Below are positions 16,751 to 33,487 of a stretch of 60,587 nucleotides of DNA, piece by piece. How positions within the stretch are numbered: position 1 is the first letter of the stretch; every line of letters begins with the position of its first letter. The notes beneath the pieces are model-generated. The model did not search any database and had not been told where the DNA came from. It saw nothing but the letters and a program-made list of their open reading frames with translations. The stretch lies in assembly GCF_000403785.1 (NCBI RefSeq), contig NZ_APHJ01000034.1:1-60587 (forward strand). Reading direction: 5' to 3'. This stretch comes from Gillisia sp. CAL575 (GTDB lineage Bacteria; Bacteroidota; Bacteroidia; Flavobacteriales; Flavobacteriaceae). Both the position numbers and the translations under genes were made by a program.

Positions 16751-16963
16751 AATTTTTGTTTCTTATAATTAATGAGATACAAGCCTTAAATTAAGACAGA
16801 GTATTCCCATACCCAGTATAGAACCGAGTTTTATAGATAATAAATAATATAATTTACAGGTATAAATTTTAGAGAAGGACGTCCATACCAAAGAACTATA
16901 TATATTTAATTAATTTCTCTCATTACAACTTTTATATATGGAACGTGCATTCCATTTATACTT

Positions 16964-17674
16964 TTATAAATCTACATTATAGCAATACTTGTATAGACTT
17001 CTAAAATGTAATTTCATTTTTACCTTAGCTTCTTGGGGATCCATATTTTCTATTGCTTGATAAATAGCTTTATGTTCTTCGATCCCTAAAATTGCCTGGT
17101 TTTCATCGCAAACATGATATTTTGCGAAATTTGTAATAATTTCAGGAGTAATTATAAGCATGAAAGTATTCATAGTACTGTTACCACTTGCCTTAGCAAT
17201 AGCAAGATGAAAAAGCAGATCTTCTTGTACTGCATCCTCACCTTTTAGAGCCTTTTCAGTATAAGCTTCTAATGCATCTTTCATTTGCTGCAGCTGTTCT
17301 TCTGTGCGTCTCAGTGAAGCTAATCTAACGGTTTTTAACTCCAATAAAATTCTGGTTTCAACCAGAGATTTAAAGTCTGGATCATTTAAACTCAAAATGT
17401 CCGAAATCATTCCGTTTAGAGCAACCACTCCAATATTGGCTAGATACGTACCACTTTGAGGAACACATTTTAAGAGTCCGTAAAATTCAAGAGTCTGTAT
17501 AGCTTCTCTTAAATTATTTCTACTTACTCCAAATCTATCAGACAACATACGCTCTGAAGGTAATTTATCTCCTGGTTCCAGATTTTTGAAATTAATATAG
17601 TCTCTTATTTCAGAAATAATATTATTCTCGGTTTCCTGCTGAATATTCTTTTTGTTAAGTGACTCCACTTTCAT
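16964..17674 (-). CDS. FadR-type GntR regulator of the alginate locus
   Basis: A 236-residue regulator. The N-terminal winged helix-turn-helix (about 15-80) has the GntR signature LPSERMLSDRFGVSRNNLREAI; the C-terminal all-helical FCD domain (about 95-230) binds an effector and often a metal through Asp/His residues (FHLAIAKASGN among them). FadR-type proteins bind palindromes of the form TTGGTnnACCAA. Exactly such sites, in tandem, lie before this gene (17705-17729), before susC, before PL17 and before PL6. The most economical reading is that this protein represses all four and itself, and is released by a pathway intermediate such as DEH or KDG. The effector is inferred. Confidence 0.93.
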   Translation of the reverse strand: MKVESLNKKNIQQETENNIISEIRDYINFKNLEPGDKLPSERMLSDRFGVSRNNLREAIQTLEFYGLLKCVPQSGTYLANIGVVALNGMISDILSLNDPDFKSLVETRILLELKTVRLASLRRTEEQLQQMKDALEAYTEKALKGEDAVQEDLLFHLAIAKASGNSTMNTFMLIITPEIITNFAKYHVCDENQAILGIEEHKAIYQAIENMDPQEAKVKMKLHFRSLYKYCYNVDL

Positions 17675-17704: not shown

Positions 17705-17734
17705 TTGGTTAACCAAACTGGTTTGTCAAATTTA
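17705..17734 (-). promoter_or_regulatory. gntR promoter and operator
   Basis: Two 12-bp palindrome-like units, TTGGTTAACCAA (17705-17716) and CTGGTTTGTCAA (17718-17729), lie 13 bases apart. On the minus strand a TAAATTTG -7 box (17727-17734) shares its TTG with the second unit. The -33 region (17754-17757 reads CCTG on the minus strand) is poor. The second unit is the least perfect of all the sites. The leader would be about 45 bases. This points to negative autoregulation. Confidence 0.75.
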
Positions 17735-17806
17735 GGGATTTTTTTTTAGTTTACAGGATTAACTGAAATCAATAAAAATATTCCTTTGAAATCTTCTGAT
17801 TATTAG

Positions 17807-17834
17807 CTTTCACAAGCTTTTAAACTTGTGAAAG
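17807..17834 (-). terminator. Hairpin at the end of the susC-PL7 operon
   Basis: A perfect 10-bp stem (CTTTCACAAG, 17807-17816, with CTTGTGAAAG, 17825-17834) around an 8-base loop lies about 50 bases after the stop codon of the last PL7 gene and upstream of gntR. The T-tract on the minus strand is weak, so termination is likely but not certain. Confidence 0.5.
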
Positions 17835-17885
17835 TCAATAATACTTATTGAAACTAAACCAATTTTAAGCTAATTCCTAATAGTT

Positions 17886-18806
17886 TCAATGGCTTACCTC
17901 AAGATCAAAATATTTTACTTTAGCAAATGAATTTTCATTTGTACTTGCAAAATAATTTCCGGCCTTAAAGTAGTTTTCAAATACATTCCATTTTTGGATA
18001 TGTATATTATCATAAACAACTTTTTCTTTATCATTTAAAGTTATTTCCATCTTTCCTTTAGATGCAACAACCTCTAGAGTAAATTTTTCATGTCCAACTT
18101 CTTCTGAAAAATTGAAACCTTCATCATCACCCCAAGCATTTGTATATAAGATCTCAGTGTCTGAGGCCTCAATATCCTTTAGAACTTTTGTCTTCACTCG
18201 TATCTTTCCTTTAATCCAATAAATTTTTAAAATAGGTGGTGCATTATTATCGTCTTCTCCTATTAAATCCCTTTGCTCATTGGTTAGTCTGCCATGGATT
18301 TGCATTACTATTGTCCTCTCAAATTCACCGTTTTCATCTTTAGAAATTTCTGGAACAGATAATGTTCCTCTCATCTTCCCACCTTGTTCAAAGGTCCAGT
18401 TTACATTGTTACTTCCTGGCTGCATCTGCTCCCTGAGTTCTGTCCTGGAATAAGAAGAATTGGCAGTTGAAGAAGCTGGAAATGTGTAAAAAACAAGAGA
18501 ACCATCAGTAGAATCATTATACATAAACCTTTTTAAAGTTTCATTCGTGGCATAATCCATAATTTCCGGTGGCTCGACTTCTGTAGGATTTCCTATTGGA
18601 ATAGTAACCTTCCAATGGCTAAGATCTATATTTGGCAACTTATAGTCTTTAGAGATTACCGTTTCTGGTACTACTTCTATAGGATCTACAACAGGTTTAT
18701 CTACCGTTTCCTCTTTTTCACAGCTAATAAAAATACTCAGCAAGCCAAGTGTACAGAAAGAAAAATAGACAGGCTTAAAATATTTCTTATATCTTCTATT
18801 TCTCAT
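17886..18806 (-). CDS. PL7 alginate lyase, lipoprotein (copy A)
   Basis: A 306-residue polysaccharide lyase family 7 enzyme. A signal peptide with lipobox IFISC puts the lipidated cysteine at Cys29, followed by an acidic, proline-rich tether, as in surface-exposed lipoproteins of this phylum. The beta-jelly-roll domain (about 55-306) has the three family motifs: RTELREQ (121-127), QIHG (169-172) and YFKAGNY (279-285), which supply the catalytic Gln, His, Arg and Tyr. The Ile in QIH is often linked with action on poly-guluronate or mixed blocks. It follows copy B by 10 bases and is last in the susC operon. Confidence 0.94.
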   Translation of the reverse strand: MRNRRYKKYFKPVYFSFCTLGLLSIFISCEKEETVDKPVVDPIEVVPETVISKDYKLPNIDLSHWKVTIPIGNPTEVEPPEIMDYATNETLKRFMYNDSTDGSLVFYTFPASSTANSSYSRTELREQMQPGSNNVNWTFEQGGKMRGTLSVPEISKDENGEFERTIVMQIHGRLTNEQRDLIGEDDNNAPPILKIYWIKGKIRVKTKVLKDIEASDTEILYTNAWGDDEGFNFSEEVGHEKFTLEVVASKGKMEITLNDKEKVVYDNIHIQKWNVFENYFKAGNYFASTNENSFAKVKYFDLEVSH

Positions 18807-18816
18807 ATTTAATGTG

Positions 18817-19734
18817 TTAATGTGAAACTTTCAGTTTAAAGAATTTCACTTTAGCATATGCACCTTCATCTGTTGTTTGAAGATAATTTCCTGCTTTGAA
18901 ATAATTTTCAAAAACTCCCCATTTTTCCATATGAATATTATTATAGGTTTTGAATTCATTATTATTCAGCGAAATCACCATCTTCCCATCTGATACTTCA
19001 ATTTCAATATCAAACTTTTTGAATCCAACTTCATTTTCAAAAGTGTAACCATCATCATCTCCCCAGGCATCTTCATATAAGAGACCATCTGCCTTTGTGC
19101 CTAAATATTTCAATTCTTTGGTCTTAACTCTTATTTTTCCATTATGCCAGTAAACTTTCAATATTGGTGGGGCATTGTTATCCTTTTGTCCTATTAATTT
19201 CTTTTGTTCATCTGTTATTCTACCATGAATTTGAAGGATGATCACTTTATGGTATTTCCCTTCTTCATCTCGCGATACATCTTCCATAGAAATGGTAGCT
19301 TTCAAGTTTCCTCCTTCTTTAAAAGTCCAATTAATATCATCATCTCCAGCAACCATTTGTTCCCGTAATTCAGACCTCGAATATTTAGTATTCGCTGTTG
19401 TCGCATTACTTGGGTGCGCGTAAAACACCAATGCACCAGAAGTTGAATCATTATACATATATGGCCTCAACACTTCATTGGTTGCATAATCGAGGATTTT
19501 AGGAGGTTCCACACTTATGGCCCCTCCTTTTCCCTCCCCTTCCGGGATAGTTACTTTCCAATGACTTAAATCTATATCTGGTAATTGATATTTTTTATCT
19601 GAATTAAGATCCTTTTCTGAAGGACCTTTAATTGCAGATCCAGCACTCTGACATTGAATTGAAATGCAACTAAAAGTTAGCACTCCAATTAAAATCACAG
19701 TTTTTTGAATATACTTCATTGGATTCTTAATCAT
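18817..19734 (-). CDS. PL7 alginate lyase, lipoprotein (copy B)
   Basis: A 305-residue PL7 enzyme, a tandem paralogue of the next gene. Motifs are RSELREQ (120-126), QIHG (168-171) and YFKAGNY (278-284). The signal segment has cysteines at 23 and 28; either may carry lipid. The start at 19734 overlaps the stop of the PKD gene by 4 bases (ATGA), so translation is coupled; a second ATG 5 codons later is also possible. The two copies share domain length and all motifs but differ in the N-terminal tether and in charged surface loops, which suggests an old duplication with split roles. Confidence 0.94.
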   Translation of the reverse strand: MIKNPMKYIQKTVILIGVLTFSCISIQCQSAGSAIKGPSEKDLNSDKKYQLPDIDLSHWKVTIPEGEGKGGAISVEPPKILDYATNEVLRPYMYNDSTSGALVFYAHPSNATTANTKYSRSELREQMVAGDDDINWTFKEGGNLKATISMEDVSRDEEGKYHKVIILQIHGRITDEQKKLIGQKDNNAPPILKVYWHNGKIRVKTKELKYLGTKADGLLYEDAWGDDDGYTFENEVGFKKFDIEIEVSDGKMVISLNNNEFKTYNNIHMEKWGVFENYFKAGNYLQTTDEGAYAKVKFFKLKVSH

Positions 19735-20630
19735 TCTCCTTCTGTTTCTTCCTCTTCAATAACTGGAACTATAGACACATCATCTATATATGCATCACTT
19801 ACATTTTCACTATCAAATAGCATGGAAATTTCTCCATTTGCACCAGTTTCAAATTCGATAATTAGCGCATTATAATTCCCTTTGCCATCATTAACTTCAC
19901 CTTTTTCCTGAGCTAATAGCGTAGCAGATTCAAACTCATCAAGATTTGATAACTGACCATCTATGATAGAAACTCTTATATAATCACCATCTTCCCGCAA
20001 TGCGTAATAGGCTGTGAAAATATATTTTGTGTTAGGAGATACTGTTATACCTTGATAGGATTGGCGTGCGTTTGTAGCACTAGTTGGATATTTTGCAGCT
20101 TGCGTATCACCTCGGCCATCCGAACCTGAAATTTGATGAATACTTGCCCCGCTTAATCTCCAGCAGTCCCGGCCATCTTGCCCATCGCCACAAGCTTCGC
20201 TACCATCTTCAAAGTCTGCCTCTCCTATAACTGGCGTAATTGCCGCAGGAACAGGAGGTTCTACTACCGTAACTTCTTTGCTGAAAGAATTTGTTACGCC
20301 TAGATTATCTGATACTGTTAAAGTAACCGTATAGGTACCTTCATCCGGAAAAGTATTAGTGGCATCCAATTCTGTAGAGGTGTTGCCATCTCCAAAATCC
20401 CACATAAAAGTTGTTGCACTATTAGACAGATTAGCAAAATTATATGTTAGAAAATCTGTATCACTTTGTGATGCTGTAAAATTTGCCGAAGGAGGTGTTT
20501 TATCTGCAATAGAACCTGTCTCAGGTAGATCGTATTCATAATCACAAGCAAAAAGGCTTGATATCATTAAGACCACAGACATTAGCTTAAAAGATCTTAA
20601 GATGGAAAGTTTATAGATTATTGTTTTCAT
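19731..20630 (-). CDS. PKD-domain surface lipoprotein, probable alginate-binding protein
   Basis: A 299-residue protein with a lipoprotein signal (MISSLFAC, Cys29). A PKD domain follows (about 45-125; FMWDFGDGNTSTE and GTYTVTLTVSDN). The C-terminal part (about 135-290) is a beta-rich module with EADFEDGSEACGDGQDGRDCW and PNTKYIFTAYYALRED, like carbohydrate-binding jelly rolls of the CBM4/9/22 type; a Cys pair lies in its first part. No lyase motif is present. Its place straight after susD is where surface glycan-binding proteins (SusE/SusF analogues) are found, so it probably captures alginate at the cell surface. Binding is inferred. Confidence 0.75.
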   Translation of the reverse strand: MKTIIYKLSILRSFKLMSVVLMISSLFACDYEYDLPETGSIADKTPPSANFTASQSDTDFLTYNFANLSNSATTFMWDFGDGNTSTELDATNTFPDEGTYTVTLTVSDNLGVTNSFSKEVTVVEPPVPAAITPVIGEADFEDGSEACGDGQDGRDCWRLSGASIHQISGSDGRGDTQAAKYPTSATNARQSYQGITVSPNTKYIFTAYYALREDGDYIRVSIIDGQLSNLDEFESATLLAQEKGEVNDGKGNYNALIIEFETGANGEISMLFDSENVSDAYIDDVSIVPVIEEEETEGE

Positions 20631-20649
20631 TTTAAATTTTTTAAAGATT

Positions 20650-22074
20650 TTAATATCCTGGATTCTGCTGCATTATCCCATTACTCAGGTTAATTTCCCT
20701 TTGCGGGATTGGTAGTAATAAATCTGTAGCACTAAAGCTATAATCATTCATACTTGAGAATGCGGAAAGGACTTCTTGAGCTGCCCCAAAACGAACAAGG
20801 TCAAAGAATCTATGATTTTCAAAGGCTAATTCTACACGTCTTTCATCCAACAGATCTTGTTTGGTAATAGTTGTAACAGTTTCTGTTAAACCTGCTCTAT
20901 CCCTAACTTTCTGAAATGAGTTGATCGCAGCAGTAGCACTTGTTTCTTGGCCTCCAGCTAAAATTGCTTCAGCATGCATTAATAGAACATCTGCATATCT
21001 AATGATTATCCAATCATTCCCCGCCAATTCTGGATTGCTAGATGTAGGTTCTATATCTAAACTTGAATCTCCATTCGGAAGATATTTTACAACTTGATAC
21101 TGTGTAGGTTGCGCCATGTCTTGTCTATAGGAGTATTCTGTTCTATTCCCTCCTTTAGCGTCCAAAGCCAATCTAGCATCTGCGGTCACATAATTCACTC
21201 CACTGGTTCTACCTACGGAATTCAACCATTCGGCGGAAATATTCTGACTTTCTGAAGAAAGATCTGAAGTATAACCTATTGCAAAAATCACTTCATCATT
21301 ATTCTCAGTATAAAATACATCCTTGAAGTTCGATTCGAGAGAAAATTCTCCACTGGTAATTACCGATTCTAAAAGAGTTTGTGCTTCAGAATAATTTGTT
21401 CCTAATGTTAGGTAAACTTTAGCCAAAAGTGATTGAGCCGCAGCTTTAGATGCTCTATTCTTGAAACTGTTATCCAGGTTCTGGATGGAAATTTTAAGAT
21501 CACTAATAATTAGATCGTAAATTTCACTGGATGGAACTCTGGTAAATGCTATTTCCTTTTCAAGTGGACCTATTAAATGGTCTATCAAAGGAATGTCTCC
21601 ATATAATCTCACCAAATTAAAATAAGCATAGGCTCTTACAAATTTCGCTTCTCCTTCAAATTTTGGAGATTTCGCTTCAGACGCTGCATCTAGATTTTCT
21701 AAAACTAGATTAGCACGGTAAATAATCTCATAAAAACTTATGTAATAATTAGAAACTATACCATTACTGGCAGTTACGTTATAACTTTCAAACTGAGCAG
21801 CTTCTCCTTCACTAGATTTAGTTCTAGTGTTATCACTACGCATTTCAGTAAGGTAATATTCTCTTTGAATACTAAAGTTGTCATCCAAATTATTGGAGTT
21901 TACACCTTGTATAGCATCATACATACCTATAACTCCTGTTTCAATTTCTTCATCATTTTGAAAGTAACCCACAGATGAAATGGCAGATTCTGGCAAAGGC
22001 TCTAGAAAATCGGCTCCACAGGAGATCATCATGATGGATAAAAATCCATAAATTAAATATTTTATTTTTTTCAT
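20650..22074 (-). CDS. susD: SusD-family glycan-binding lipoprotein
   Basis: A 474-residue outer-surface lipoprotein with lipobox MMISC (Cys19) followed by GADFLEPLPESAISS, the usual SusD start. The TPR-rich helical core includes KFVRAYAYFNLVRLYGDIPLI, the most typical SusD segment, and the C-terminal DERRVELAFENHRFFDLVRFG is the RagB/SusD domain. It forms the lid over the SusC pore and binds the incoming oligosaccharide. It lies 28 bases after susC in the same operon. Specificity for alginate is given by the flanking lyases. Confidence 0.96.
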   Translation of the reverse strand: MKKIKYLIYGFLSIMMISCGADFLEPLPESAISSVGYFQNDEEIETGVIGMYDAIQGVNSNNLDDNFSIQREYYLTEMRSDNTRTKSSEGEAAQFESYNVTASNGIVSNYYISFYEIIYRANLVLENLDAASEAKSPKFEGEAKFVRAYAYFNLVRLYGDIPLIDHLIGPLEKEIAFTRVPSSEIYDLIISDLKISIQNLDNSFKNRASKAAAQSLLAKVYLTLGTNYSEAQTLLESVITSGEFSLESNFKDVFYTENNDEVIFAIGYTSDLSSESQNISAEWLNSVGRTSGVNYVTADARLALDAKGGNRTEYSYRQDMAQPTQYQVVKYLPNGDSSLDIEPTSSNPELAGNDWIIIRYADVLLMHAEAILAGGQETSATAAINSFQKVRDRAGLTETVTTITKQDLLDERRVELAFENHRFFDLVRFGAAQEVLSAFSSMNDYSFSATDLLLPIPQREINLSNGIMQQNPGY

Positions 22075-22102
22075 AATTGTGTCTTTTATACTTTTCTTAC
22101 AA

Positions 22103-25100
22103 TTAAAAATCTGCGTTTAATCCTATCGAGATTGTTTTATATATAGGAGATCCTCCTCTTTGATACCCGTAAGTTGTTGCCGAAGTATCATCTATAGATT
22201 CTGGATTAAATCCAGTATAGTTATCTGCTGTCCAATACTTAAGGTTTTGCCCTGCTGCATAGATTCTCAAGCCCGTTAATCCTATTTTGGAGGTAAGATT
22301 CTCTGGTAAATCATAGCCAATATTAACATTTCTCAGAGCTACATAAGATGCATCTTGAATCACAGAATTTGTAAAGATTTTTTCTTTAATAAAACCTTGG
22401 TTTGGAGTAGTTGCTGGAACAAAATCCTGCCCACTATTAAAATGATTGAATATGTACTGATCTCCCATATTCCTAACCTCCGCTCCATGGCTTCCCTGAA
22501 ATAAGAAACTCACGTCTACATTTCCAATCTTAAAGTCGTTTGTAAGACTCCATAATAAATCTGGATACGGATTCCCAAGGATAGTTTTATCATCATCATC
22601 TATAACCCCATCGCCATTTAAATCCTTTACATATACATCTTGTGCCTGAGCCCCAATTGGAAAGAAAGGTTGTTGTAGATTTTCTAAAGCAATTTGCTCA
22701 TCTACAACCCAACCGTAAAATGAAGAAATAGGTTGCCCTTGTAAATTTATCCATTCTGCAGCTCTTTTGTCATCCACAATTTGGATCTGTCCATTAGAAT
22801 CTGCAAAATCTGTTAATTCATTGTCATTCATAGACCCCAAAATAGTAGTACTCCATTTAAAATTAGGAGTAGAAATATTTCGTGTTCTTAATTCTAATTC
22901 CAAACCACTGTTTACAACTTCTCCTATGTTTACTAACGCATTTCTAAAACCGGTTGTGGAAGAAACAGGATTAAAAAGTAATAGTTGATCACTAGTACGT
23001 CTATAATAATCTACAGAACCTGTTAATCTATTTTTAAAAAAACCAAAATCTAATCCAGGATTAATTTCTTTTGAACGCTCCCATTTTAAATCTGGATTTG
23101 CAATGTTTAAAGCAATAAATGCCGACTCTAAACCGCCACCAATTGTTGCAGATGCTGGTCCTAAAAGCGGTAATGATGGATAAAGATCTATAATATCGCT
23201 ATTAGTATCTAAGTCTTTATTACCGGTGAATCCATAACTCAATCTAAATTTAAGATTACTTACATAATTGCTTTCTTTTAGAAAATCTTCTTGAGCTATA
23301 TCCCAACCAACAGAAACAGCAGGGAAATCACCGTACTTTGTCTCAGTTCCAAAAATAGAACTACCATCACGACGAAAACTTACAGATGCAAGGTACTTAT
23401 CTGCATAAGCATAATTCACTCTAGCAAAGTAACTTTGAAATCGTTCTGTAAAAATAAAGGATTCAATATCTGTTGCAACAGTTGCTGCGGAAAGTGTCTT
23501 AATTAAATCTGAAGAATAACCAGTTCCTAGAGAACTACTTCCTTCATAATCCCATTTTTCGAAAGAAATACCAACCAAAGCATCAATTTCATGATCACCT
23601 ATTGTAGTATCGTAACTCAAATAAGTTTCAGAAGCTACATGAATTCTATTTTCATTAGAAACTTCATAACTAGCATCTGCGGCACCGTTTCTACTAGATA
23701 AAACTCCCTGCCATCTATCTCTAAATGTGTTTTGATAATCCCCAGACAAATTAGCTCTTATACTTAAATCGTCTAAGATCTTATACTCACCATAAAAATT
23801 ACCGTAGAACTTTAACTTTAAATCATTTCTATCTCTCTCTACAACTTTCGCTACAGGATTCGTGTTTGAGGTATCACTTATATCTATAAGAGTACCATCA
23901 CCAAATAGATCATAATTGTCAAAATGTCGCTGTATGGCATAATCTCCAATTTGAACATCTGGATAAACATTACGGTCTACATATTGGATAGAATTTTCGT
24001 CATGGTAAACTGGAAGCCAAGGAGATTGGCGTAGAATATCATGGGTAGATCCATCAAATCTTCTTGTATTAGTGTAAGAAGGAGCTAAATTTCCACCCAT
24101 CTTAAATTTATCACTAACCTTAGTATCTAATTTTAATCTTAGGTTATATCTTTTGTAATCATCTGTAAGCAAAACACCTTCATCATGAAGATATCCCATT
24201 GATATACTGAATTTAGTTTTTTCAGTTCCTCCACGAGCACTTAAAGAGTGATTTTCAATAATTCCACCATCAAATATAATGTCTTGGTAATCCCGATCTA
24301 TTCCAATTTGCTGAATATACTGAGTTCTGTTTGATAGCTCCCCTGTTGCGGCAAGTTCTGCTGCAGCGGTTTTAGCTACAGAAAAGTAATAAGCATCGCT
24401 TTCTCTAGCTTCCTTAAAACCCATATAAGTTTGGTAACTAAAAACCGTTTTACCTTCTTTCCCTTGTTTAGTGGTAATTAAGATAACTCCATTACTTCCT
24501 CTAGATCCATAAATAGCTGCAGATGCAGCATCTTTAAGCACATCAAAAGATTCAACTTCGCTCATATCTAAACTTCCTAAGAAATCGTTATCTACAACAA
24601 GACCATCTACCACAATTAAAGGATCTGAACTTCCTGTTAAAGAACCTGTTCCCCTAATTCTTATAGTTGGTGCAGATCCAGCTTCACCTTGTGTTGCCTG
24701 AATATTAACCCCAGATATCTGCCCTACAAGAGCATCATCTATTCTTGCCACAGGCAATTGATCAAGATCTTCATTCACTACACTAGACACCGCACCAGTT
24801 AAGTGGCTCTTCTTTCGAGTACCATAACCAATTACCACAGTTTCATCAAGTTGTTGTGCATCCACAGACATGGAAATATCCAATGTTTTTTGTTCATTAA
24901 TAATAATTTCTTCCGTATTGAAACCTAAAAAAGTGAACTGAAGGACATCTCCCTTCACTACATCGATTTCGTAATTACCATCAAAATTAGACACCACTCC
25001 CCTATTTGTACCCTTAACAATTACGTTAACCCCAGGTAAGGTAAGTTGATCTGATTCCGAGGTAATGGTTCCCGAAAGAAGAAAGCTCTCCTGCGCAATA

Positions 25101-25156
25101 AGAGTGAAATGGCAGAAAAACACCATTAAAACAATTGCAAATTTCTTCAAATTCAT
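22103..25156 (-). CDS. susC: SusC-family TonB-dependent oligosaccharide importer
   Basis: A 1017-residue outer-membrane protein. Order: signal peptide (1-22, ending LIAQE), a carboxypeptidase-regulatory-like beta domain (about 25-100, GVNVIVKGTNRGVVSNFDGNY), TonB box (about 104-112, ETVVIGYGT), plug domain (about 115-225, with SLTGSSDPLIVVDG and SAAIYGSRGSNGVILITTK), and a 22-strand barrel ending in an aromatic-phe terminus (SIGLNADF). With SusD it imports alginate oligomers using energy passed by TonB; a TonB-like protein is encoded at 45607. It heads the operon susC-susD-PKD-PL7-PL7 and is preceded by an unusually long leader with a strong hairpin. Confidence 0.97.
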   Translation of the reverse strand: MNLKKFAIVLMVFFCHFTLIAQESFLLSGTITSESDQLTLPGVNVIVKGTNRGVVSNFDGNYEIDVVKGDVLQFTFLGFNTEEIIINEQKTLDISMSVDAQQLDETVVIGYGTRKKSHLTGAVSSVVNEDLDQLPVARIDDALVGQISGVNIQATQGEAGSAPTIRIRGTGSLTGSSDPLIVVDGLVVDNDFLGSLDMSEVESFDVLKDAASAAIYGSRGSNGVILITTKQGKEGKTVFSYQTYMGFKEARESDAYYFSVAKTAAAELAATGELSNRTQYIQQIGIDRDYQDIIFDGGIIENHSLSARGGTEKTKFSISMGYLHDEGVLLTDDYKRYNLRLKLDTKVSDKFKMGGNLAPSYTNTRRFDGSTHDILRQSPWLPVYHDENSIQYVDRNVYPDVQIGDYAIQRHFDNYDLFGDGTLIDISDTSNTNPVAKVVERDRNDLKLKFYGNFYGEYKILDDLSIRANLSGDYQNTFRDRWQGVLSSRNGAADASYEVSNENRIHVASETYLSYDTTIGDHEIDALVGISFEKWDYEGSSSLGTGYSSDLIKTLSAATVATDIESFIFTERFQSYFARVNYAYADKYLASVSFRRDGSSIFGTETKYGDFPAVSVGWDIAQEDFLKESNYVSNLKFRLSYGFTGNKDLDTNSDIIDLYPSLPLLGPASATIGGGLESAFIALNIANPDLKWERSKEINPGLDFGFFKNRLTGSVDYYRRTSDQLLLFNPVSSTTGFRNALVNIGEVVNSGLELELRTRNISTPNFKWSTTILGSMNDNELTDFADSNGQIQIVDDKRAAEWINLQGQPISSFYGWVVDEQIALENLQQPFFPIGAQAQDVYVKDLNGDGVIDDDDKTILGNPYPDLLWSLTNDFKIGNVDVSFLFQGSHGAEVRNMGDQYIFNHFNSGQDFVPATTPNQGFIKEKIFTNSVIQDASYVALRNVNIGYDLPENLTSKIGLTGLRIYAAGQNLKYWTADNYTGFNPESIDDTSATTYGYQRGGSPIYKTISIGLNADF

Positions 25157-25296
25157 AAGTTGATTTTTTAGTTAATTAGACTCATTTAATAAATTAGTTA
25201 CACCAGACTAATTTTTAGATTTAATAATCCCTACTAGTGGAAATTCAGAGGAAAAAAGAGAATTGGATTACTTATGAATTTGTACATTTGTAACAA

Positions 25297-25310
25297 TTGG
25301 TTACTACCAA
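25297..25310 (-). promoter_or_regulatory. Possible extra operator in the susC leader
   Basis: TTGGTTACTACCAA is an inverted repeat with the same TTGGT/ACCAA arms as the GntR sites but with 4 bases between arms where the others have 2. It lies about 140 bases upstream of the susC start, inside the presumed leader. It may be an auxiliary or decayed site. Confidence 0.35.
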
Positions 25311-25354
25311 GTAATCGATATGTATTTAATAACTTCTCTCAATGAAGTTTTTAT

Positions 25355-25382
25355 AAAAGGATAGGCGTGCACCTATCCTTTT
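25355..25382 (-). terminator. Strong hairpin in the susC leader (terminator or leader element)
   Basis: An 11-bp perfect stem (AAAAGGATAGG, 25355-25365, with CCTATCCTTTT, 25372-25382) encloses a 6-base loop. It is flanked by T-tracts in both directions. In the direction of transcription it lies after the operator and -7 box at 25418-25460 and before susC. It could end read-through from PL17-kdgF, but it would then also lie in the path of the susC transcript. Confidence 0.7.
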
Positions 25383-25417
25383 TTCTTTTCTTGAATTAAA
25401 AATTTATAAGAACTTTT

Positions 25418-25460
25418 TTGGTAAACCAATTTGGTTTTCCAATCTGGTTTACCAAATATA
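25418..25460 (-). promoter_or_regulatory. susC promoter with triple GntR operator
   Basis: Three 12-bp units, TTGGTAAACCAA (25418-25429), TTGGTTTTCCAA (25431-25442) and CTGGTTTACCAA (25444-25455), start exactly 13 bases apart. The minus strand has a TATATTTG -7 box (25453-25460) sharing its TTG with the outer unit; the -33 position 19 bases upstream (25480-25483) reads TTTC, one base from TTTG. The leader to the susC ATG would be about 290 bases. Confidence 0.85.
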
Positions 25461-25538
25461 TATTAATTAATTGTTAACTGAAAAATATATTGAGGTAAAT
25501 TTTACCATTTTTTAGTTAAACTTTCACAATAATGTACT

Positions 25539-25883
25539 TTAAAAGAAATCTTCTCTAATTGGACTAAAAACATCTATTAAAATTCCTTTTTCTTTACAAA
25601 TCGCTCCATGCAGTTTATGAGGAGGAATATAAAAAGAGTCTCCCCCTTTTAATGTTTTAGTTTCATCTCCAATGGTTAATTCAAATTCCCCACTAACCAC
25701 ATAGGTTACCTGAGAATGATGGTGCTCATGCATTGGACCTATACTACCCACTTCAAATTTCACTTTTGCCAGTAAAATTTTATCATCGTATCCAAGGATT
25801 TGTCTTTGAACACCTTCTCCAACAGTTTCCCACTTAACTTCTTCAGACTTTAAAAATTCTTTACTTGTGCCTATATCTTTCAT
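25539..25883 (-). CDS. kdgF: KdgF, cupin converting unsaturated monouronate to DEH
   Basis: A 114-residue single-domain cupin. The metal site is HEHHHSQ at 52-58 (His52, His54 and Gln58 are the likely ligands) with His92 in PPHKLHGA as the fourth. KdgF proteins speed the ring opening of 4,5-unsaturated galacturonate or mannuronate/guluronate monomers, the product of exolytic lyases, to the linear keto form. It begins 5 bases after the PL17 stop, so the exolyase that releases the monomer and the enzyme that opens it are made from one message. No signal peptide is seen, which fits a cytoplasmic role. Confidence 0.92.
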   Translation of the reverse strand: MKDIGTSKEFLKSEEVKWETVGEGVQRQILGYDDKILLAKVKFEVGSIGPMHEHHHSQVTYVVSGEFELTIGDETKTLKGGDSFYIPPHKLHGAICKEKGILIDVFSPIREDFF

Positions 25884-25888
25884 AATAT

Positions 25889-28153
25889 TTAGTTTTCAAT
25901 TATTGTATAATATCCCTTCCAGGAAATCTCATTATTATTTAGCCTTAAACTATGCTGGCCTTCTCCATTTTTATTAGCTATTACAAGAATTAGCTTAGCT
26001 TTATTAAAACCAACAAGTTCAACAGCAGTATACTCATCATTATCCACAAGAATTTTAGCCTCTTGGATTTGGCTGAAGGAATTGTTCCCTAATTCGGTTA
26101 TTGGATTATAACTCCCATGTGGTTCTAATACCGAAACAAAAACTGCATCTCTAATATTATTTTTTCTCCAAATATAAACTGGGTCCCTCCTTAGATTGAA
26201 TTGAGGATCTGAAGCTCCAAGCCTTCCCATAATTAAACTATCTCCCTCTTTAGTCACATTTGTTAGCGTATAAAACTTGTTATTATTAGACCAAGTGAAT
26301 TTGGAATTATTAGCAGTGGAGGTCCCTGCTGCTTCTTTCCATAAATGCTGATAACCATTTTCTACGCCTAGCTTTTCAAGTTTTTCTGGTGAATTATATT
26401 CAAAATTTGTTTCTATAATTTGACCGAAATAATAAAATGGTAAGTCATATTGATTCTCTTTTTCTCCGTTCACTCTAAAAATATCGATCATCACAGGTTT
26501 TTGAAAAATGTCACTATTTATTAATGCCATAGTTCTATGCATCTGAGTATCTGGATAGGCATTATTTTCCTTTGCGCTTATAATTTGAATTTCCTGTTTG
26601 GAAAAATCTGAAAAGTATTGTTCAGAATGAAACTTGGTACCCGTATCAAAATCCCCATTAAAATGAGAAGTTTCATTTTGAACAATTGTATTATGCGCTA
26701 TACTTTGTTTTGCCCAACTGCTGTTTTCTTTCAAATATCCTCCACCATTTTTTTGTTCAATATTAACGAACCTCGCAAAACCATAATCTTGGATTACCTC
26801 TTCTCCTTCATTATAAAATGAATAAGAAAGTTTATCGTAATGTCCATGACTATCTCCTTGAGAAGTATATTTCATTACTAACGAATACATACTTTTATCC
26901 TCCTTACTATGTAAAATAGCTACACCTCCTTTATTCCCTTTTGGCCCATCCGTAAGAATAATAGACTCTTTAAGAAATTCTTGCTCTTCATTATTTTTTA
27001 ACCCAAGTGCTACAGCGAGTCCGGCATCATCTAAAGTAACCTCTCCTTGCTTTTTTGCAATGGAAAGCAGCATTGGATTATGTTCTCCATAAAAATATGC
27101 TGCATCTACAGACATGATCACAGACTTATTGAAATAAGACATTCCCTTTTGAGCATCATTAAGTGGAAAGAATTCCCCATCAGCATCAGTTAAATTTATT
27201 AACGCGAAAACCGATTTTACCAAGATGCCATCCTTATATTCAAAAATCTTTAATTCGGGCTTTTTATTCTGTAAAGCTTTCGCAAACAACATAAAAGGAT
27301 ACAATGCATATCTCTGATAGTATGGGCCTTCTGTATAGTAACCTGAAGGAGAAAAAGCTTCTTCCATATTAGCCAAAAACCCAGCTTTTTGTCCTTTTTG
27401 CTTGATTAATCCACCATCATTATCTCTTGCAGCCTCATCTATATTGTCTTCTTTAAGGCCATAAAGCGCACGGTCTACCAACTCTTCATCGTTCATTACT
27501 AAACCTATCATACCTACAGCGGCATTTCCCCAAGTACTGTGATTATGAATTCTATTAAAAAATTGAGGGCTTTCTACTGAAAGAAAATCGGCAAAAGGCC
27601 TGAATAAATTGTTTTCTAAAGTTGCTCTTTCCTCTTTACTTATCCAGTTGTAGATACTGCTATAAGCCTGGCTCATAGAAACCAACCAATTTGAATCATT
27701 TAATGACTGCCAAAATATTTTTCCTCTTGCATAAGAACGCTCTTCAGGATGTAGTGGTAATTTTGGATACATCACTGCATATTCCAAAAGCATTTTTTTA
27801 ATATAATTAGCATATTTTTCATCTCCGAGAATATTAAACAGCACTCCGGCTTTCTGCGCTGTACTATAATTTTTCTTATGTCGTTCGTGTGTATACCCAC
27901 CTGCAAGATCTTTAGGAATAGGCACCTCGATACCATTACTTATTTCTTCATCAACCTCATCCTTAATCTCCTGTAAACTCTTATCGAATAACGGGACTTG
28001 TCCAAGGTTATCTTTAATTTTCTTAAGTCCTTTTTCTGTTAATATCAATCCTGAAGATTTTGATGACACCTGATCTTGTGCCTTCGAAAATTGACTGAAG
28101 ATGAAAAGAAATAAGAAAATTCTTAAAGAGTGACTTTGAAAAGGACTTTTCAT
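25889..28153 (-). CDS. PL17 oligoalginate lyase
   Basis: A 754-residue exported enzyme (signal peptide 1-25, ending SKAQD). The alpha/alpha toroid (about 60-370) holds RIHNHSTWGNAAVG with Asn204-His205 and EGPYYQRYALYPF with Tyr278, the catalytic group of PL17 exolyases. A heparinase II/III-type beta-sandwich follows (about 400-750), with the metal-site segment QGDSHGHYDKLSYSFY. PL17 enzymes remove unsaturated monomers from alginate oligomers, often preferring mannuronate. The gene has its own promoter with GntR sites at 28236-28265 and is followed by kdgF. Confidence 0.93.
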   Translation of the reverse strand: MKSPFQSHSLRIFLFLFIFSQFSKAQDQVSSKSSGLILTEKGLKKIKDNLGQVPLFDKSLQEIKDEVDEEISNGIEVPIPKDLAGGYTHERHKKNYSTAQKAGVLFNILGDEKYANYIKKMLLEYAVMYPKLPLHPEERSYARGKIFWQSLNDSNWLVSMSQAYSSIYNWISKEERATLENNLFRPFADFLSVESPQFFNRIHNHSTWGNAAVGMIGLVMNDEELVDRALYGLKEDNIDEAARDNDGGLIKQKGQKAGFLANMEEAFSPSGYYTEGPYYQRYALYPFMLFAKALQNKKPELKIFEYKDGILVKSVFALINLTDADGEFFPLNDAQKGMSYFNKSVIMSVDAAYFYGEHNPMLLSIAKKQGEVTLDDAGLAVALGLKNNEEQEFLKESIILTDGPKGNKGGVAILHSKEDKSMYSLVMKYTSQGDSHGHYDKLSYSFYNEGEEVIQDYGFARFVNIEQKNGGGYLKENSSWAKQSIAHNTIVQNETSHFNGDFDTGTKFHSEQYFSDFSKQEIQIISAKENNAYPDTQMHRTMALINSDIFQKPVMIDIFRVNGEKENQYDLPFYYFGQIIETNFEYNSPEKLEKLGVENGYQHLWKEAAGTSTANNSKFTWSNNNKFYTLTNVTKEGDSLIMGRLGASDPQFNLRRDPVYIWRKNNIRDAVFVSVLEPHGSYNPITELGNNSFSQIQEAKILVDNDEYTAVELVGFNKAKLILVIANKNGEGQHSLRLNNNEISWKGYYTIIEN

Positions 28154-28235
28154 ACAGGCTTTAGGTTTAATGTATATTCAAAAAAATGAACTAATTATTG
28201 TATTCGATGACTATATCGATATAGTAAATTGATAA

Positions 28236-28288
28236 TTGGTTTACCAGTTTGGTTTACCAAATATAATAAAAATTTTATATGGAGCAAA
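28236..28288 (-). promoter_or_regulatory. PL17-kdgF promoter with double GntR operator
   Basis: Two units, TTGGTTTACCAG (28236-28247) and TTGGTTTACCAA (28249-28260), start 13 bases apart. On the minus strand a perfect Bacteroidota promoter reads TTTG (28285-28288), 19-base spacer, TATATTTG (28258-28265); its TTG is shared with the outer operator unit. The leader to the ATG at 28153 is about 95 bases. Confidence 0.9.
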
Positions 28289-28315
28289 TGATAGTTAAAG
28301 GAATCTTAAAATGAA

Positions 28316-30586
28316 TTATAATTTCAGGAGGTCAATCTCAAATTTTTCTCCCGGTTGAAGTTCTACTTCTTTCTTATTGACCTTTTTTGATTTGGTTATA
28401 GAACTGAAGCTTATTTTAAAAGGCTTAACTGAAAGTGACTGAACTAAGATCTTACTATCCGTTTTCTTAAGATAAATATCTGAGGATGCAGAAATATCAA
28501 TTTGAATGTTCTCTATTTTCAAACTAGATACAGAAAATAAAAATCCCATATTATCTTTTATCAATGATTTTAGATCTTCCCCTTTCAACTCCCACTGTGT
28601 CTCTAAATTTAGTTGCCATCCTTTTAAATCGGGAGTTTTTTCATCTTCATTTATTCTTGCATCAAATACTTCAAATGGATATAGAATAGTGATAAAGTTG
28701 AAGTTGGCCTCAGGCTTGGAAGAGACTATGGACCATTGCTTTCCCCGTTGTCCTGAGCTTACTACAGTATCTGCAGATTCCAACTGGAGAATATCTAGCC
28801 CGGAGCCATCATCAAAAGTAGATCTCAATAAATTTGGAGCATGTTCTGCTGTATAATGTCCTTGCCAGATTTGTTTGTAAATGTGATCTTTTTCAGCATT
28901 AAAATTATCCTTTATAATCCAAAAATCATCTTTTACAAAAATTACTTGTCTGGAATATTCTACTTCAATATTTTCAAAGCCGTTGTGACTTCCTATATAT
29001 AGATCGAGATCAGGATTCGACTTAAATACAATCGTATTTGGCTGTGGTAACTCTCCAAATTTGCCAAAGCCGCTACCTCCTTTATTAGATTTATAATCCT
29101 TTCCCTGAAGTTCGTCATCTACTAGGGCTACATTCTTAACTAAAGAATTTTTAAAAAGTTCAAGATCATCTAGTGAATAGCGCACTTGGTAATTGGGTAA
29201 AATCACTTTGCCATTGGCCATTGCCTGAATTCCCAAAATATCCCCATGTTGATGGTCTGGCTTTTTATCGTCCAAACCAGCAGAAATAACCAACATTTTA
29301 TCCTTTGCCTCCCAGCCATTACGCATTATATAATACCCGGTTTCTGTAAAAGCTAGAGATTTAAAATCTGGCTGTTTTGTTTTAATATTCTCTAACATCC
29401 CTAACTGATTCCCGCTTAAATACCAATACGTGTCAGATTCGACTTTATTAGACGCGAAAAATCCCATTCCCGGATCGTTAAAAAGCAAGTATCCCAAGGT
29501 CATCGCACCAGAAATGTCATTTCTTTCTGCCCAAGGTTTATCGGTATCATCTGAAAACACAGGGGCAGATCCGTCAGGGAAAGCAATTTTCTCTAGCGTG
29601 ATAAATAAAGATTTCAACTTTTCTTCCCATACAGGTCCTACATTAATACCACTGTTTTTTGCTAACTGATATACATAAAAATAATTTTTAATATCACTCA
29701 TGTGGTAATGCACCGTCCTTTCAAACTGAAAACCGTCTTTATTAATTTCCGCAGATAAATGTTGCTCCAACAAATCCATCGAACGTTCATACCATTTATC
29801 GGTTCCCTCAAAATCTCTTAAAAGAATACTTAACATTGCAAGTGCAGACATTCCACGAGTTTGATGATTCCCAGAACTAAATTCTTGGTTATTTTCAAAT
29901 AAATTCGCTCCATGTTGAAGCAAAGTGGCAATTGTTCTTAATTGGTCTTCATCTGAATATTGCTTTTCTCCTAAAAACATATTATGAATTTGAAGCCAGT
30001 TTAATATTCTATATCCAGAACGAAACACTTCATATACCCCGTTTCCATCGTCAATAGTTTCAAATTTATTAGCATCTAAAGCTTGGTTTAACGATTGTAA
30101 TTGGGATGTGAAATAATTTAAGTAGGTTGTATCCTTTTGCTTATAATTATAATAAAATGCTATATCAACCATTTTATGTTGCCGTGCTAAATGTCTAAGC
30201 GCATAGGCATCTACAGCTTCGCCAGTTAAATAATTAAAAGGCAATTTCCATTTAGCGTCACCAGGATATTTAGAAAGGTGATCTAAGGCTCTTTCATTAT
30301 GATGACCTTCAGATGAAGGATAAAGATTATTGTGAGTTTTAAATCTCTCATCAAAATTTTTCCAATCGTAAAAATATCTTTCTGAAAATTTTTCGCGAAA
30401 GTAAGTTGCCAGAGTTGCATTAGAAATAACGCCATTTTCATCTGCTAATGCATTTTTTACCTCAGGCTTAAGATATGTAACGAGTTCGTTATTGGGAATA
30501 ACTCTTTCTGAAGGGAAATCTTGTGCATGAATACCTGTAGTCATCGCCAAAAAGCAAAAAGGAAGAAAAATTTTAATAACTGACAT
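28316..30586 (-). CDS. Heparinase II/III-family lyase, probable alginate-acting, PL family unassigned
   Basis: A 756-residue exported protein (signal 1-21, ending IHAQD). A helical toroid (about 90-380) carries SSGNHQTRGMSALAM with Asn240-His241 and FQFERTVHYHMSDIKNYFYVY with Tyr294; a beta-sandwich (about 400-750) carries KKPDHQHGDILGIQ with His445 and His447. This is the heparinase II/III fold seen in PL12, PL15, PL17, PL21 and PL39. The motifs differ from those of the neighbouring PL17 enzyme, so it is not a simple duplicate. It begins 10 bases after the PL6 stop and shares that promoter. Its place implies alginate or a related uronan as substrate; I cannot name the family from sequence alone. 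Confidence 0.8.
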   Translation of the reverse strand: MSVIKIFLPFCFLAMTTGIHAQDFPSERVIPNNELVTYLKPEVKNALADENGVISNATLATYFREKFSERYFYDWKNFDERFKTHNNLYPSSEGHHNERALDHLSKYPGDAKWKLPFNYLTGEAVDAYALRHLARQHKMVDIAFYYNYKQKDTTYLNYFTSQLQSLNQALDANKFETIDDGNGVYEVFRSGYRILNWLQIHNMFLGEKQYSDEDQLRTIATLLQHGANLFENNQEFSSGNHQTRGMSALAMLSILLRDFEGTDKWYERSMDLLEQHLSAEINKDGFQFERTVHYHMSDIKNYFYVYQLAKNSGINVGPVWEEKLKSLFITLEKIAFPDGSAPVFSDDTDKPWAERNDISGAMTLGYLLFNDPGMGFFASNKVESDTYWYLSGNQLGMLENIKTKQPDFKSLAFTETGYYIMRNGWEAKDKMLVISAGLDDKKPDHQHGDILGIQAMANGKVILPNYQVRYSLDDLELFKNSLVKNVALVDDELQGKDYKSNKGGSGFGKFGELPQPNTIVFKSNPDLDLYIGSHNGFENIEVEYSRQVIFVKDDFWIIKDNFNAEKDHIYKQIWQGHYTAEHAPNLLRSTFDDGSGLDILQLESADTVVSSGQRGKQWSIVSSKPEANFNFITILYPFEVFDARINEDEKTPDLKGWQLNLETQWELKGEDLKSLIKDNMGFLFSVSSLKIENIQIDISASSDIYLKKTDSKILVQSLSVKPFKISFSSITKSKKVNKKEVELQPGEKFEIDLLKL

Positions 30587-30596
30587 TTTTTGAATT

Positions 30597-32906
30597 TTAG
30601 TACATTAATTTTTGCTTCAGATTCTCTTCTATTTTGATCTCACCAGAATTTTTGATGCTATTATTCTCAGGCTTCTGACCTTTTTCTCCCCAAAGGATGG
30701 CAATGTATTTTACCGAATTGTCTATAAAACTATTATCAGAAAACGTGACATTCACTATCCCTCGAGTCTTTAATAGGACCTGTGTGTTTTCTGAAGTCCC
30801 AGAGTTTTTGAAGGTGTTTCCTGTTAAGATTAGATTACCTCCAATAGTAGATTCATCATAACCGCCTCTATAATAATTTAAAACCTCCTCCTTAATATTG
30901 CTGAAATTGGAATTGGTGATGTAAACAAATTCTGCATTGTACTCTCCCTTATCATCGGTTTCTTCAGCCAAATTAATACCGCTTTGAAGATCTTTAATTG
31001 TTGAATTTGATATAGAAATTGTATCGGCAAAAGAGCGTTGAGAAACTTTGAGAAGATTTTTAAATCCGCTAATTTCTGAATTATCAATCCACAAATTATA
31101 AGCGCTGGACATATTTTCTTTTAAGGTTCCAAAAGCATCCCGATTCTTAGTTCCCTTTAATACGATATTTTCCATCTTAAGAATCCCTTCCGGATTCATT
31201 TCGAATGCTGGGGAAGAATCATTTTCTGAGAATTGAAGAATAGCTTTCTTCTTTCCTTTTTCTGACCTAATGCTAATTTTTTTATTAATTGGAATAGAAA
31301 CGTCCAGCTTATAAGTACCAGATTTTAATTCAATAATATCTTCGGAAACTGTTTTTTGGAGCACTTCCAGCAATTCGTCTGTAGTTGAAACATTAAAAAT
31401 CTTAGACTTTTTATTTTCCTTCACCGCAGTATACCAATCTGGCCCATATTCAGATATTTCGAACAAACTTTGATCTTTTTCTACAGGAAGGCTTACAGCA
31501 CCAATACTTTTAACTTCGCTTCGGTCTTTTCCAAAAATATCTTCCTCGATCTTTTCAAAATCAAAACCTGCATAAACATCTGTATGGTTTTCAACCGGGA
31601 CAAATAAATACTCGTTGATCTTTTTAATTTTAAAATCCTTTGTAATAATGCCTTTATCCTGAACTTCACTTTTATTGATACTATTTGAAATATTGTTTTT
31701 AAAACTTACTCCATCTACGATATCGTAAGCTACAATTGGAAAATTCTGTTCCTCATCATTATAAATTAAGTTATTGGCCAGAAGAATACGCTCAGGTCGC
31801 GCAGATCGAATTTCAGTAGCAGGCAACACTTCACTTTTATCTACATTAGATCCTACACTAAAATGCCAAGGAGAGATGCAATTAACATAGGTATTGAATG
31901 CAGCCACCACATCGGTCACTTGGTTGTATCTGTTCAAAGGAGATTTAGGGATTCCATTCATAACCGCTAATGGGCTTCTAAATTCTGAACCTTTTAATTT
32001 ATAAAAATAGTTATTGGTGATCCAGTGCCCAGTATTTATTACCCGAATTCCACCTATAAATTCTGAATTATCATTGCCAATAAAAACATTTCCATCGATC
32101 GTTGCATAATTACCATGTCTCAGAACCAAGGAACCTTCCGACTCGAAAAAGACATTGTGACTAAATTGATTAAAATTGGATTTGCTTGAAATAATCTCTA
32201 CTTCCCCATTACATCTATAAAATAAATTCTCGGCAACATTCACATATGCAGGGGTCATTGAGGTTTCACTAGAACCTATTTGAAGAGTCTCCCCGTGAGG
32301 ACCTCCTTTTCTAGGTCTAGGACCAAAATAATTATTAATGATTTGGTGATGAGTATTAATATTTTCATTTCCTTTTAGAAAAACTCTTAAAGTAGGTCCG
32401 GAATTAGATTTTCCTGCTATATAGCAATGGTCTAGCTGATTATTTCTTCCCCAAAATTCTATCCAGTGATCCTGAACATCACGACTTGGTTGAGTAAAGT
32501 TTTCAATTACACAATTAGTAACCCGGGAATGGTTAGCAATATTGTCATTATCTACTTTAAATTGAATCACAGAATTAGACGGAGTGTAACCGTTTTTGAA
32601 ATATAAACCGTCCACTATTAGATATTCGCCAGCTAGTTTAAGGGAAGATTTTCCTTCAATAGTTACTTTTCCCTTTTCTTCAACACTTAAAGTAATAGGT
32701 TGGTCTTTTGTTCCCTTTCCCTTGAAAATTAATTCCACGTCTTTCCAAACACCTCTAGCCATTATGATATTATCTCCTGGCGTAGCTTTAGATACCGCAG
32801 TGTTAAATTCTGTGATATTTTGAACTAGAATTTCTTTCTTGGAGACTTCTTGTGAAAAGTTTAGGCTGGAAGATAAAAGCGTAAAAAGGAGAAGGAAATA
32901 TTTCAT
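30597..32906 (-). CDS. PL6 alginate lyase, two beta-helix domains
   Basis: A 769-residue exported enzyme when read from the ATG at 32906. That start gives a clean signal peptide (MKYFLLLFTLLSSSLNFSQE); an upstream in-frame start at 32966 would translate straight through the operator and -7 box and is rejected. The N-terminal parallel beta-helix (about 25-440) is the chondroitinase-B-like PL6 catalytic domain, with the Bronsted base Lys242 in IISSKSN and acid Arg263 in LVLRHGN. A second beta-helix (about 470-769) resembles the C-terminal domain of two-domain PL6 exolyases such as AlyGC. It is first in an operon with the heparinase-fold lyase. Confidence 0.93.
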   Translation of the reverse strand: MKYFLLLFTLLSSSLNFSQEVSKKEILVQNITEFNTAVSKATPGDNIIMARGVWKDVELIFKGKGTKDQPITLSVEEKGKVTIEGKSSLKLAGEYLIVDGLYFKNGYTPSNSVIQFKVDNDNIANHSRVTNCVIENFTQPSRDVQDHWIEFWGRNNQLDHCYIAGKSNSGPTLRVFLKGNENINTHHQIINNYFGPRPRKGGPHGETLQIGSSETSMTPAYVNVAENLFYRCNGEVEIISSKSNFNQFSHNVFFESEGSLVLRHGNYATIDGNVFIGNDNSEFIGGIRVINTGHWITNNYFYKLKGSEFRSPLAVMNGIPKSPLNRYNQVTDVVAAFNTYVNCISPWHFSVGSNVDKSEVLPATEIRSARPERILLANNLIYNDEEQNFPIVAYDIVDGVSFKNNISNSINKSEVQDKGIITKDFKIKKINEYLFVPVENHTDVYAGFDFEKIEEDIFGKDRSEVKSIGAVSLPVEKDQSLFEISEYGPDWYTAVKENKKSKIFNVSTTDELLEVLQKTVSEDIIELKSGTYKLDVSIPINKKISIRSEKGKKKAILQFSENDSSPAFEMNPEGILKMENIVLKGTKNRDAFGTLKENMSSAYNLWIDNSEISGFKNLLKVSQRSFADTISISNSTIKDLQSGINLAEETDDKGEYNAEFVYITNSNFSNIKEEVLNYYRGGYDESTIGGNLILTGNTFKNSGTSENTQVLLKTRGIVNVTFSDNSFIDNSVKYIAILWGEKGQKPENNSIKNSGEIKIEENLKQKLMY

Positions 32907-32914
32907 AAGATAAT

Positions 32915-32967
32915 CTGGTTTACCAATTTGGTTTACCAAATATAAAAATATTCCTCTACTAGCCAAA
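32915..32967 (-). promoter_or_regulatory. PL6 promoter with double GntR operator
   Basis: Units CTGGTTTACCAA (32915-32926) and TTGGTTTACCAA (32928-32939) start 13 bases apart. On the minus strand the promoter reads TTTG (32964-32967), exactly 19 bases, TATATTTG (32937-32944), again sharing TTG with the outer unit. The leader to the ATG at 32906 is only about 25 bases, and the inner unit ends 9 bases from the start codon. Confidence 0.9.
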
Positions 32968-33352: not shown

Positions 33353-33487
33353 ATGAAAACACCAAATTATGACGACAAAGTAGGAAAGCATCCAATCCCT
33401 CATGCAGAAGGAATTGCTAAAAACGAGAAAAAAGACGGCGGTGACAAGAAAAAAGATGATAATAACAAAAAGGAAGAAGGCAAATAA
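33353..33487 (+). CDS. Tiny lysine-rich hydrophilic protein (44 aa)
   Basis: An ATG-to-TAA frame of 44 codons beginning MKTPNYDDKVGKHPIPHAEG and ending in a Lys/Asp/Asn/Glu-rich tail (KKDGGDKKKDDNNKKEEGK). It has no hydrophobic segment, no Cys and no aromatic residue but Tyr6. The first half has ordinary codon use with Pro, His and Gly, unlike random AT-rich DNA, which supports a real gene. A similar tiny protein follows 138 bases on. I do not recognise the family; small highly charged proteins of this kind can be disordered stress proteins, but that is a guess. Confidence 0.5.
   Translation: MKTPNYDDKVGKHPIPHAEGIAKNEKKDGGDKKKDDNNKKEEGK

Follow-up and report, generated by a model that had tools for sequence, protein, structure and literature searches.

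The window, a 60,587-nucleotide stretch of Gillisia sp. CAL575 (contig NZ_APHJ01000034.1), contains a minus-strand alginate locus that spans 11710-32906 according to Pfam and NCBIfam profile matches, and four promoters of this locus carry tandem arrays of a 12-bp palindrome fused to the -7 box. The locus encodes a PL6-type lyase, a heparinase-like lyase, an oligoalginate lyase, a cupin, SusC, SusD, a PKD protein, two alginate lyases, a GntR regulator, an MFS transporter, a short-chain dehydrogenase, a PfkB-type kinase, a KDPG aldolase and a fructose bisphosphatase; judging from protein families and context, some of these genes may act on 4-deoxy-L-erythro-5-hexoseulose uronate (DEH) and 2-keto-3-deoxygluconate (KDG). 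The arrays, their -7 boxes and the genes around them are as follows.

16964..17674, minus strand: GntR/FCD (FadR-subfamily) regulator of AusR type, the presumed owner of the operators (Pfam GntR 2.4e-16, FCD 1.6e-22).
17705..17729, minus strand: gntR array, with units at 17705-17716 (TTGGTTAACCAA) and 17718-17729 (CTGGTTTGTCAA, promoter side).
17727..17734, minus strand: gntR -7 box TAAATTTG, its TTG common to the outer unit.
17886..19734, minus strand: two alginate lyases (Pfam Alginate_lyase2), which are taken to be PL7.
20650..22074, minus strand: SusD-like protein (profile match).
22103..25156, minus strand: SusC-like TonB-dependent receptor (profile match).
25418..25455, minus strand: susC array of three units, starting at 25418, 25431 and 25444.
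25453..25460, minus strand: susC -7 box TATATTTG, fused to the outer unit.
25539..25883, minus strand: cupin, possibly KdgF-like, its function suggested by context.
25889..28153, minus strand: oligoalginate lyase (Pfam Alginate_lyase and Hepar_II_III_C; NCBIfam olalg_lyase 1.8e-200, under that model's cut-off), presumably PL17, the label given in the first-pass annotation.
28236..28260, minus strand: PL17 array of two units, starting at 28236 and 28249.
28258..28265, minus strand: PL17 -7 box TATATTTG, with TTTG 19 bp upstream at 28285-28288.
30597..32906, minus strand: PL6-type lyase (Pfam Chondroitinas_B; ATG at 32906), PL6 being the presumed label.
32915..32939, minus strand: PL6 array of two units, starting at 32915 and 32928, directly preceding the lyase ATG.
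32937..32944, minus strand: PL6 -7 box TATATTTG, with TTTG 19 bp upstream at 32964-32967.

The units resemble TTGGTnnACCAA and number two at gntR, three at susC, two at PL17 and two at PL6, with all starts exactly 13 bp apart, as the first-pass annotation of this DNA had described. Its further claim that the outermost palindrome supplies the TTG of a TAnnTTTG box also holds at all four promoters when the minus strand is read; the outer unit at gntR (17718-17729) is degenerate, two of its eight core bases being changed. The primary sigma factor of Bacteroidota recognizes a -33 element, TTTG, placed 19 bp upstream of the -7 box; the strict TTTG that had been reported at exactly this distance is present at PL17 and PL6, two of the four promoters in the window, and the same place reads TTTC at susC and CCTG at gntR. 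TAnnTTTG itself is described as the -7 consensus of Bacteroidota primary-sigma promoters (PMC9723704).

Loose single units are frequent in the window, with 46 matches at up to two mismatches versus 33 expected. In the 3.64-Mb genome of this strain, exact single units number eight, four in the alginate arrays and four inside open frames elsewhere, versus four occurrences of the reversed single pattern. Tandem pairs at up to two mismatches number six, five of them in the four promoters and one (C20:606403) within an open frame. The first-pass annotation had named repeats at unrelated genes as a finding that would count against its reading; a genome-wide scan for the 12-mer at the 13-bp period revealed no such spread, the single additional pair being the one inside an open frame, and the arrays found lie within 16 kb. 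Among 299 genomes of the family, representing 236 genera, the exact tandem is present in 69 and the reversed control in none. In an even sample of the phylum (n=148) it is found in none of 133 genomes outside the family versus six of 15 inside, and one of these six matches, in genome G154, lies in an open frame. Exact pairs across the family number 170 at gap N3, and permitting all gaps from N0 to N30 adds 29 (sums totalled from hand-retyped tables); since 31 matches (counted by eye) come from the reversed control over the same gaps, the 29 are considered background, and three of the 11 additional places listed are pairs at a 26-bp period whose middle unit is worn. The 13-bp arrays are thus real, and their conservation extends widely through the family.

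The spacing rule was examined in 79 orthologue loci, drawn from the top 80 of 525 relatives of the GntR protein, which contain 292 exact units versus 35 of the reversed pattern. Within a distance of 60 bp, exact units form 106 pairs, of which 87 are spaced by 13 bp, 18 by 26 bp and one by 56 bp, and none by 12 or 14 bp; when exact units are paired with units of at most one mismatch, the spacings are 13 (162 pairs), 26 (44), 39 (4) and 56 bp (1). The stretch examined holds no exact pair in 21 of the 79 loci. The 13-bp register is far beyond chance. A survey for array structure yielded 202 arrays or exact single units, from which 23 within open frames (20 singles and three multi-unit arrays) were left out, leaving 48 singles and 131 non-coding multi-unit arrays, four of which are those of the window. 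These 131 hold two to four units, three in 54 cases; fused arrays have three units at 46 susC-like genes, two at 19 and four at four, while elsewhere they have two units at 24 gntR genes, and at other genes two units in 21 cases and three in six.

The fusion to the promoter is likewise widespread. TAnnTTTG occupies the same fused place in 121 of the 131 non-coding arrays (on both sides in one of them), and its direction agrees with that of the nearest gene in 112 of the 117 cases where both could be assigned. Arrays from the family scan, picked regardless of GntR at one per genome, are fused in 27 of 29 cases, and some species may be in both sets. The -33 place reads TTTK in 85 of the 121 fused arrays, and the strict TTTG stands there in 28. 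Upstream of gntR, 60 of 80 regions of 150 nt contain an exact unit, and 40 of 80 have another unit, at up to three mismatches, 13 bp upstream of the best one. Four arrays that have no fused box (L085 2031, L090 438, L108 340 and L118 1205) read TATATTGG, one T short of TAnnTTTG; this sequence recalls the TAnnTTGY motif reported for F. psychrophilum, but without the final pyrimidine (PMC9723704).

The regulator encoded within the locus matches both PF00392 (GntR winged helix, N-terminal) and PF07729 (FCD) above cut-off, an architecture of the FadR subfamily; the GntR domain match begins at residue 17 of 236, and the closest relative in the named genome set is from Gillisia mitskevichiae (97% identity). 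Foldseek comparison of its AlphaFold model, a monomer with pTM 0.60, returned NanR, DhdR, PmiR and FadR at full-length TM scores of about 0.4-0.55, with NanR 6on4 at the top (E 1.4e-9). NanR is also the best NCBIfam match, below the cut-off of that model, and comes sixth in the sequence-profile list of solved relatives, in which 9jpj is first. Arginines R42, R52 and R56 are invariant in 28 of 28 orthologues (the window protein and 27 of the 79 loci, alignment A3), and their mutual spacing matches that of Arg59, Arg69 and Arg73 of NanR, residues described as touching bases (PMC8012715); the match is by spacing, not by alignment.

An orthologue of this protein (E up to 1e-20) is present in 75 of the 299 family genomes and is closely linked to the exact tandem: both occur in 68 genomes, the protein only in seven, the pattern only in one and neither in 223. 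The sole genome with the pattern only is G154, where the match lies within a 602-codon open frame. The presence of the orthologue in 68 of the 69 tandem genomes supports the proposal of the first-pass annotation that the units would be bound by this GntR protein. On these grounds, the arrays are very probably operators of the GntR/FCD repressor of the locus itself, which would control alginate utilization as a regulator of AusR type.

Several observations weigh against this interpretation or soften it. The Fisher p of 6e-58 for co-occurrence of orthologue and tandem overstates independence because the genomes are related. Seven of the 75 orthologue genomes have no exact tandem: two have just weak homologues (E 5e-21 in G202, 46% identity in G242), one (G225) holds a 26-bp pair, and in the others (G019, G132, G207 and G213) no array was found within about 1.5 kb of the orthologue, the remainder of each genome having been searched for the exact pair alone. 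Ten of the 131 non-coding arrays do not have the strict fused box, five of the 117 assigned boxes point away from the nearest gene, and the outer unit is fused to a strict box in just 20 of 80 gntR upstream regions (the TA is there in 51 of 80). The assignment to AusR itself rests on locus content and family-wide linkage. In susC triples, where units of the same index are otherwise conserved between loci, third units are an exception (0.76 alike). Lastly, promoter geometry could keep the spacing constant with no contact between dimers.

A mechanism may be proposed in which one dimer is expected to bind each 12-bp palindrome. As the -7 box of F. psychrophilum is reported at -12 to -5 (PMC9723704), the predicted register places unit 1 at -7 to +5, unit 2 at +7 to +18 and unit 3 at +20 to +31. 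A dimer on the promoter-side unit would cover the -7 box and the start point and shut out RNA polymerase, and dimers on the units one and two 13-bp steps downstream would strengthen the repression. In ideal B-DNA, by arithmetic, a 13-bp step amounts to 1.24 helical turns, about 44 A, and ends 86 degrees past a full turn, so that adjacent dimers would wind up the DNA like the steps of a staircase instead of stacking on one face. Other spacings hardly occur and the arrays are judged to be old, which suggests that adjacent dimers touch or share a distortion of the DNA. The weakened first unit at the gntR promoter would fit a milder autorepression, and an intermediate of alginate breakdown, KDG and DEH being candidates, would release the repressor.

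The alternative that sites are independent, with one dimer per 12-mer and no contacts, the first unit being anchored at the -7 box and the rest derived from tandem duplication, is rather unlikely. Slippage could produce a 13-bp unit, and several gntR promoters with a decayed outer unit keep the inner unit in register to a TAnnTTTA- or TAnnTTTG-like box, which indicates that promoter geometry alone can hold a site. However, 105 of the 106 close exact pairs are at 13 or 26 bp, and third units lie past the start point, so far downstream that the geometry of the promoter should not determine their position. In addition, units of the same index in susC triples are 0.82 alike between loci versus 0.75 for neighbours within an array, the third units being less so, as stated above; this suggests that the arrays are old, with insertions and deletions removed, and that the spacing has been kept, not freshly duplicated. 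Recent slippage as the only cause was judged unlikely for the same reason.

The first-pass annotation had suggested a special cooperative or roadblock mode of action. The cooperative part is retained in the staircase of dimers proposed here; the roadblock part is not needed, because plain occlusion of the promoter by unit 1 at about -7 to +5 suffices. That the extra units obstruct elongation, not initiation, would be compatible with the predicted positions of units 2 and 3 within the transcript, but in 121 of 131 arrays the promoter-side unit overlaps the -7 box, which implies that initiation would be blocked before elongation, and this explanation is improbable. Ownership of the sites by some other regulator, either another FadR-type protein or a global factor, is considerably more so: operators of the FadR subfamily are reported to be alike (PMC4494728), but orthologue and arrays are present together or absent together in nearly all of the family genomes, and the arrays of the window stand at the locus's own promoters, that of gntR included. 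A role in RNA, with successive palindromes forming a hairpin in the 5′ leader, is scarcely credible: the ACCAA half of one unit can pair with the TTGGT half of its neighbour, and the predicted register puts units 2 and 3 in the transcript, but unit 1 is itself fused to the promoter, three units are common (54 of 131 non-coding arrays), and neighbouring centres are reverse-complementary in 30 of 193 pairs versus a shuffled mean of 38, with no covariation, on which account RNA hairpins were rejected.

Besides the proposed operator binding, a second layer of control may exist at susC, in the form of a candidate antisense RNA encoded within the leader of the gene.

25291..25385, plus strand: candidate antisense RNA of about 95 nt in the susC leader, with a -7-like box TACATTTG at 25283-25290, two hairpins and a U run.

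The leader measures 262 nt here from the array to the ATG. Of 69 susC-like cases, 65 have a segment of at least 170 nt (175-443 nt), 63 fall within 200-370 nt, and 61 remain when two without an anchor are omitted. Two conserved hairpins are present in many of these leaders. One stem pair is canonical on the antisense strand in 60 of 63 leaders versus 25 of 63 on the sense strand, whereas an apical pair favours the sense strand, 49 versus 14. On the antisense strand, a run of at least six U follows at the hairpin end in 57 of 61 leaders, and in 51 of 61 a TAnnTTTG box lies at a distance of 60-79 nt from the hairpin, versus 0 of 61 on the sense strand and 2% in shuffled sequences. TAnnTTTG also occurs in the last 130 nt before the ATG in 31 of 63 leaders, partly as the same box in short leaders. 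No conserved -33 element was seen at the candidate antisense promoter in susC leaders, and covariation is modest, three of 17 pairs having changed on both sides.

Alignment A2 contains 34 of the 49 leaders listed, and a model of the RNA element (R1) has 34 members. At E up to 1.2e-5 the model matches 63 of 80 sources on the antisense strand, its own 34 members included; weaker matches to the sense strand reflect the near-palindromic hairpin. The match to the window segment has E 5.5e-13 in its own genome, the window sequence itself being one of the members, and the next-best place in that genome (G000:C25:137863-137961, L164; E 0.003) could be a mere terminator hairpin. Rfam models gave no match at the gathering score in 11000-34000. 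One locus (L103, 1646-1807) has another operator array, behind which the candidate antisense RNA occurs a second time (R1 E 1.8e-8); this suggests that array and RNA travel together.

Antisense RNAs opposite operons of polysaccharide utilization loci have been described in Bacteroides (PMC10994844). An RNA of this class would be encoded opposite the 5′ part of a susC operon and have a promoter and a terminator of its own, an arrangement that is predicted here from sequence; the candidate, if real, would extend the idea from gut Bacteroides to marine flavobacteria. It is possible, although doubtful, that the two elements constitute a double lock, in which a cooperative staircase of AusR dimers, ascending in 13-bp steps of ~86 degrees downstream of the -7 box with no NanR-like extension, would be backed by a conserved antisense RNA of ~100 nt; transcribed a short way downstream of the array and opposite the susC leader, this RNA would damp leaky or lingering susC mRNA.

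The 213-bp gap (16751-16963) between gntR and the MFS, dehydrogenase, kinase and aldolase genes contains no palindrome at up to two mismatches, so these genes may use the gntR promoter or be regulated otherwise. Two tiny, very hydrophilic open frames of 44 and 49 residues on the plus strand (33353-33487 and 33626-33775) separate the PL6-type gene from a glycoside hydrolase gene.

The first-pass annotation regarded TTGGTnnACCAA as the known form for FadR-type GntR proteins. The palindrome with TKGT/ACMA boxes is indeed a feature of that subfamily, but the 2-nt GT/AC centre found here is reported as a minority form (the GntR, HpxS, HypR, MdcY, PrpR and UxuR groups), most groups having 3 nt (PMC4494728). 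The same source describes additional half-sites at 7-12 nt from the centre of the palindrome, and by arithmetic the near half of the second palindrome lies ~9-10 nt from the first centre here; the extra boxes described are weaker half-sites, whereas the arrays consist of two to four full palindromes.

NanR of E. coli, another FadR-type GntR protein, binds (GGTATA)3 as three dimers that occupy the close repeats cooperatively (PMC8012715), and several dimers on close, precisely spaced sites are likewise predicted here. According to the same description, the repeats of NanR are direct hexamers with dimers offset by about half a turn, in contrast to palindromes 1.24 turns apart, and its cooperativity needs an N-terminal extension of 32 residues, which is absent from the regulator of the window, whose GntR domain starts near the N-terminus. 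Because this extension is absent and the NanR repeats are direct, the regulator is not NanR itself, and the relation may be put as one of working like it.

The closest known counterpart is AusR of Zobellia galactanivorans, described as a GntR-family repressor of the alginate locus that binds single, double or triple operator copies (PMC7874173, PMC8286568, PMC8073546), under which most alginate genes are repressed (PMC8286568). There, as here, a GntR regulator is found among alginate lyase, SusC/D and DEH/KDG genes with repeated operators in the promoters; the Zobellia system is presented as two operons and two isolated genes, in contrast to arrays confined to 16 kb. The accessible text of an earlier Zobellia expression study (PMC5613140) does not mention GntR, and neither the 13-bp step nor the fusion to the -7 box appears in the portions of the AusR literature consulted or in literature searches, although either may have been published. 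The AusR-type regulon is therefore known in kind, and what is added is a family-wide spacing rule and its fusion to the promoter. Arrays of two to four units provide a natural series for studying how GntR dimers behave off the helical repeat, and 13-bp steps with unit 1 fused to the -7 box, recurring in many genera, offer a testable rule for finding alginate-controlled promoters in Flavobacteriaceae.

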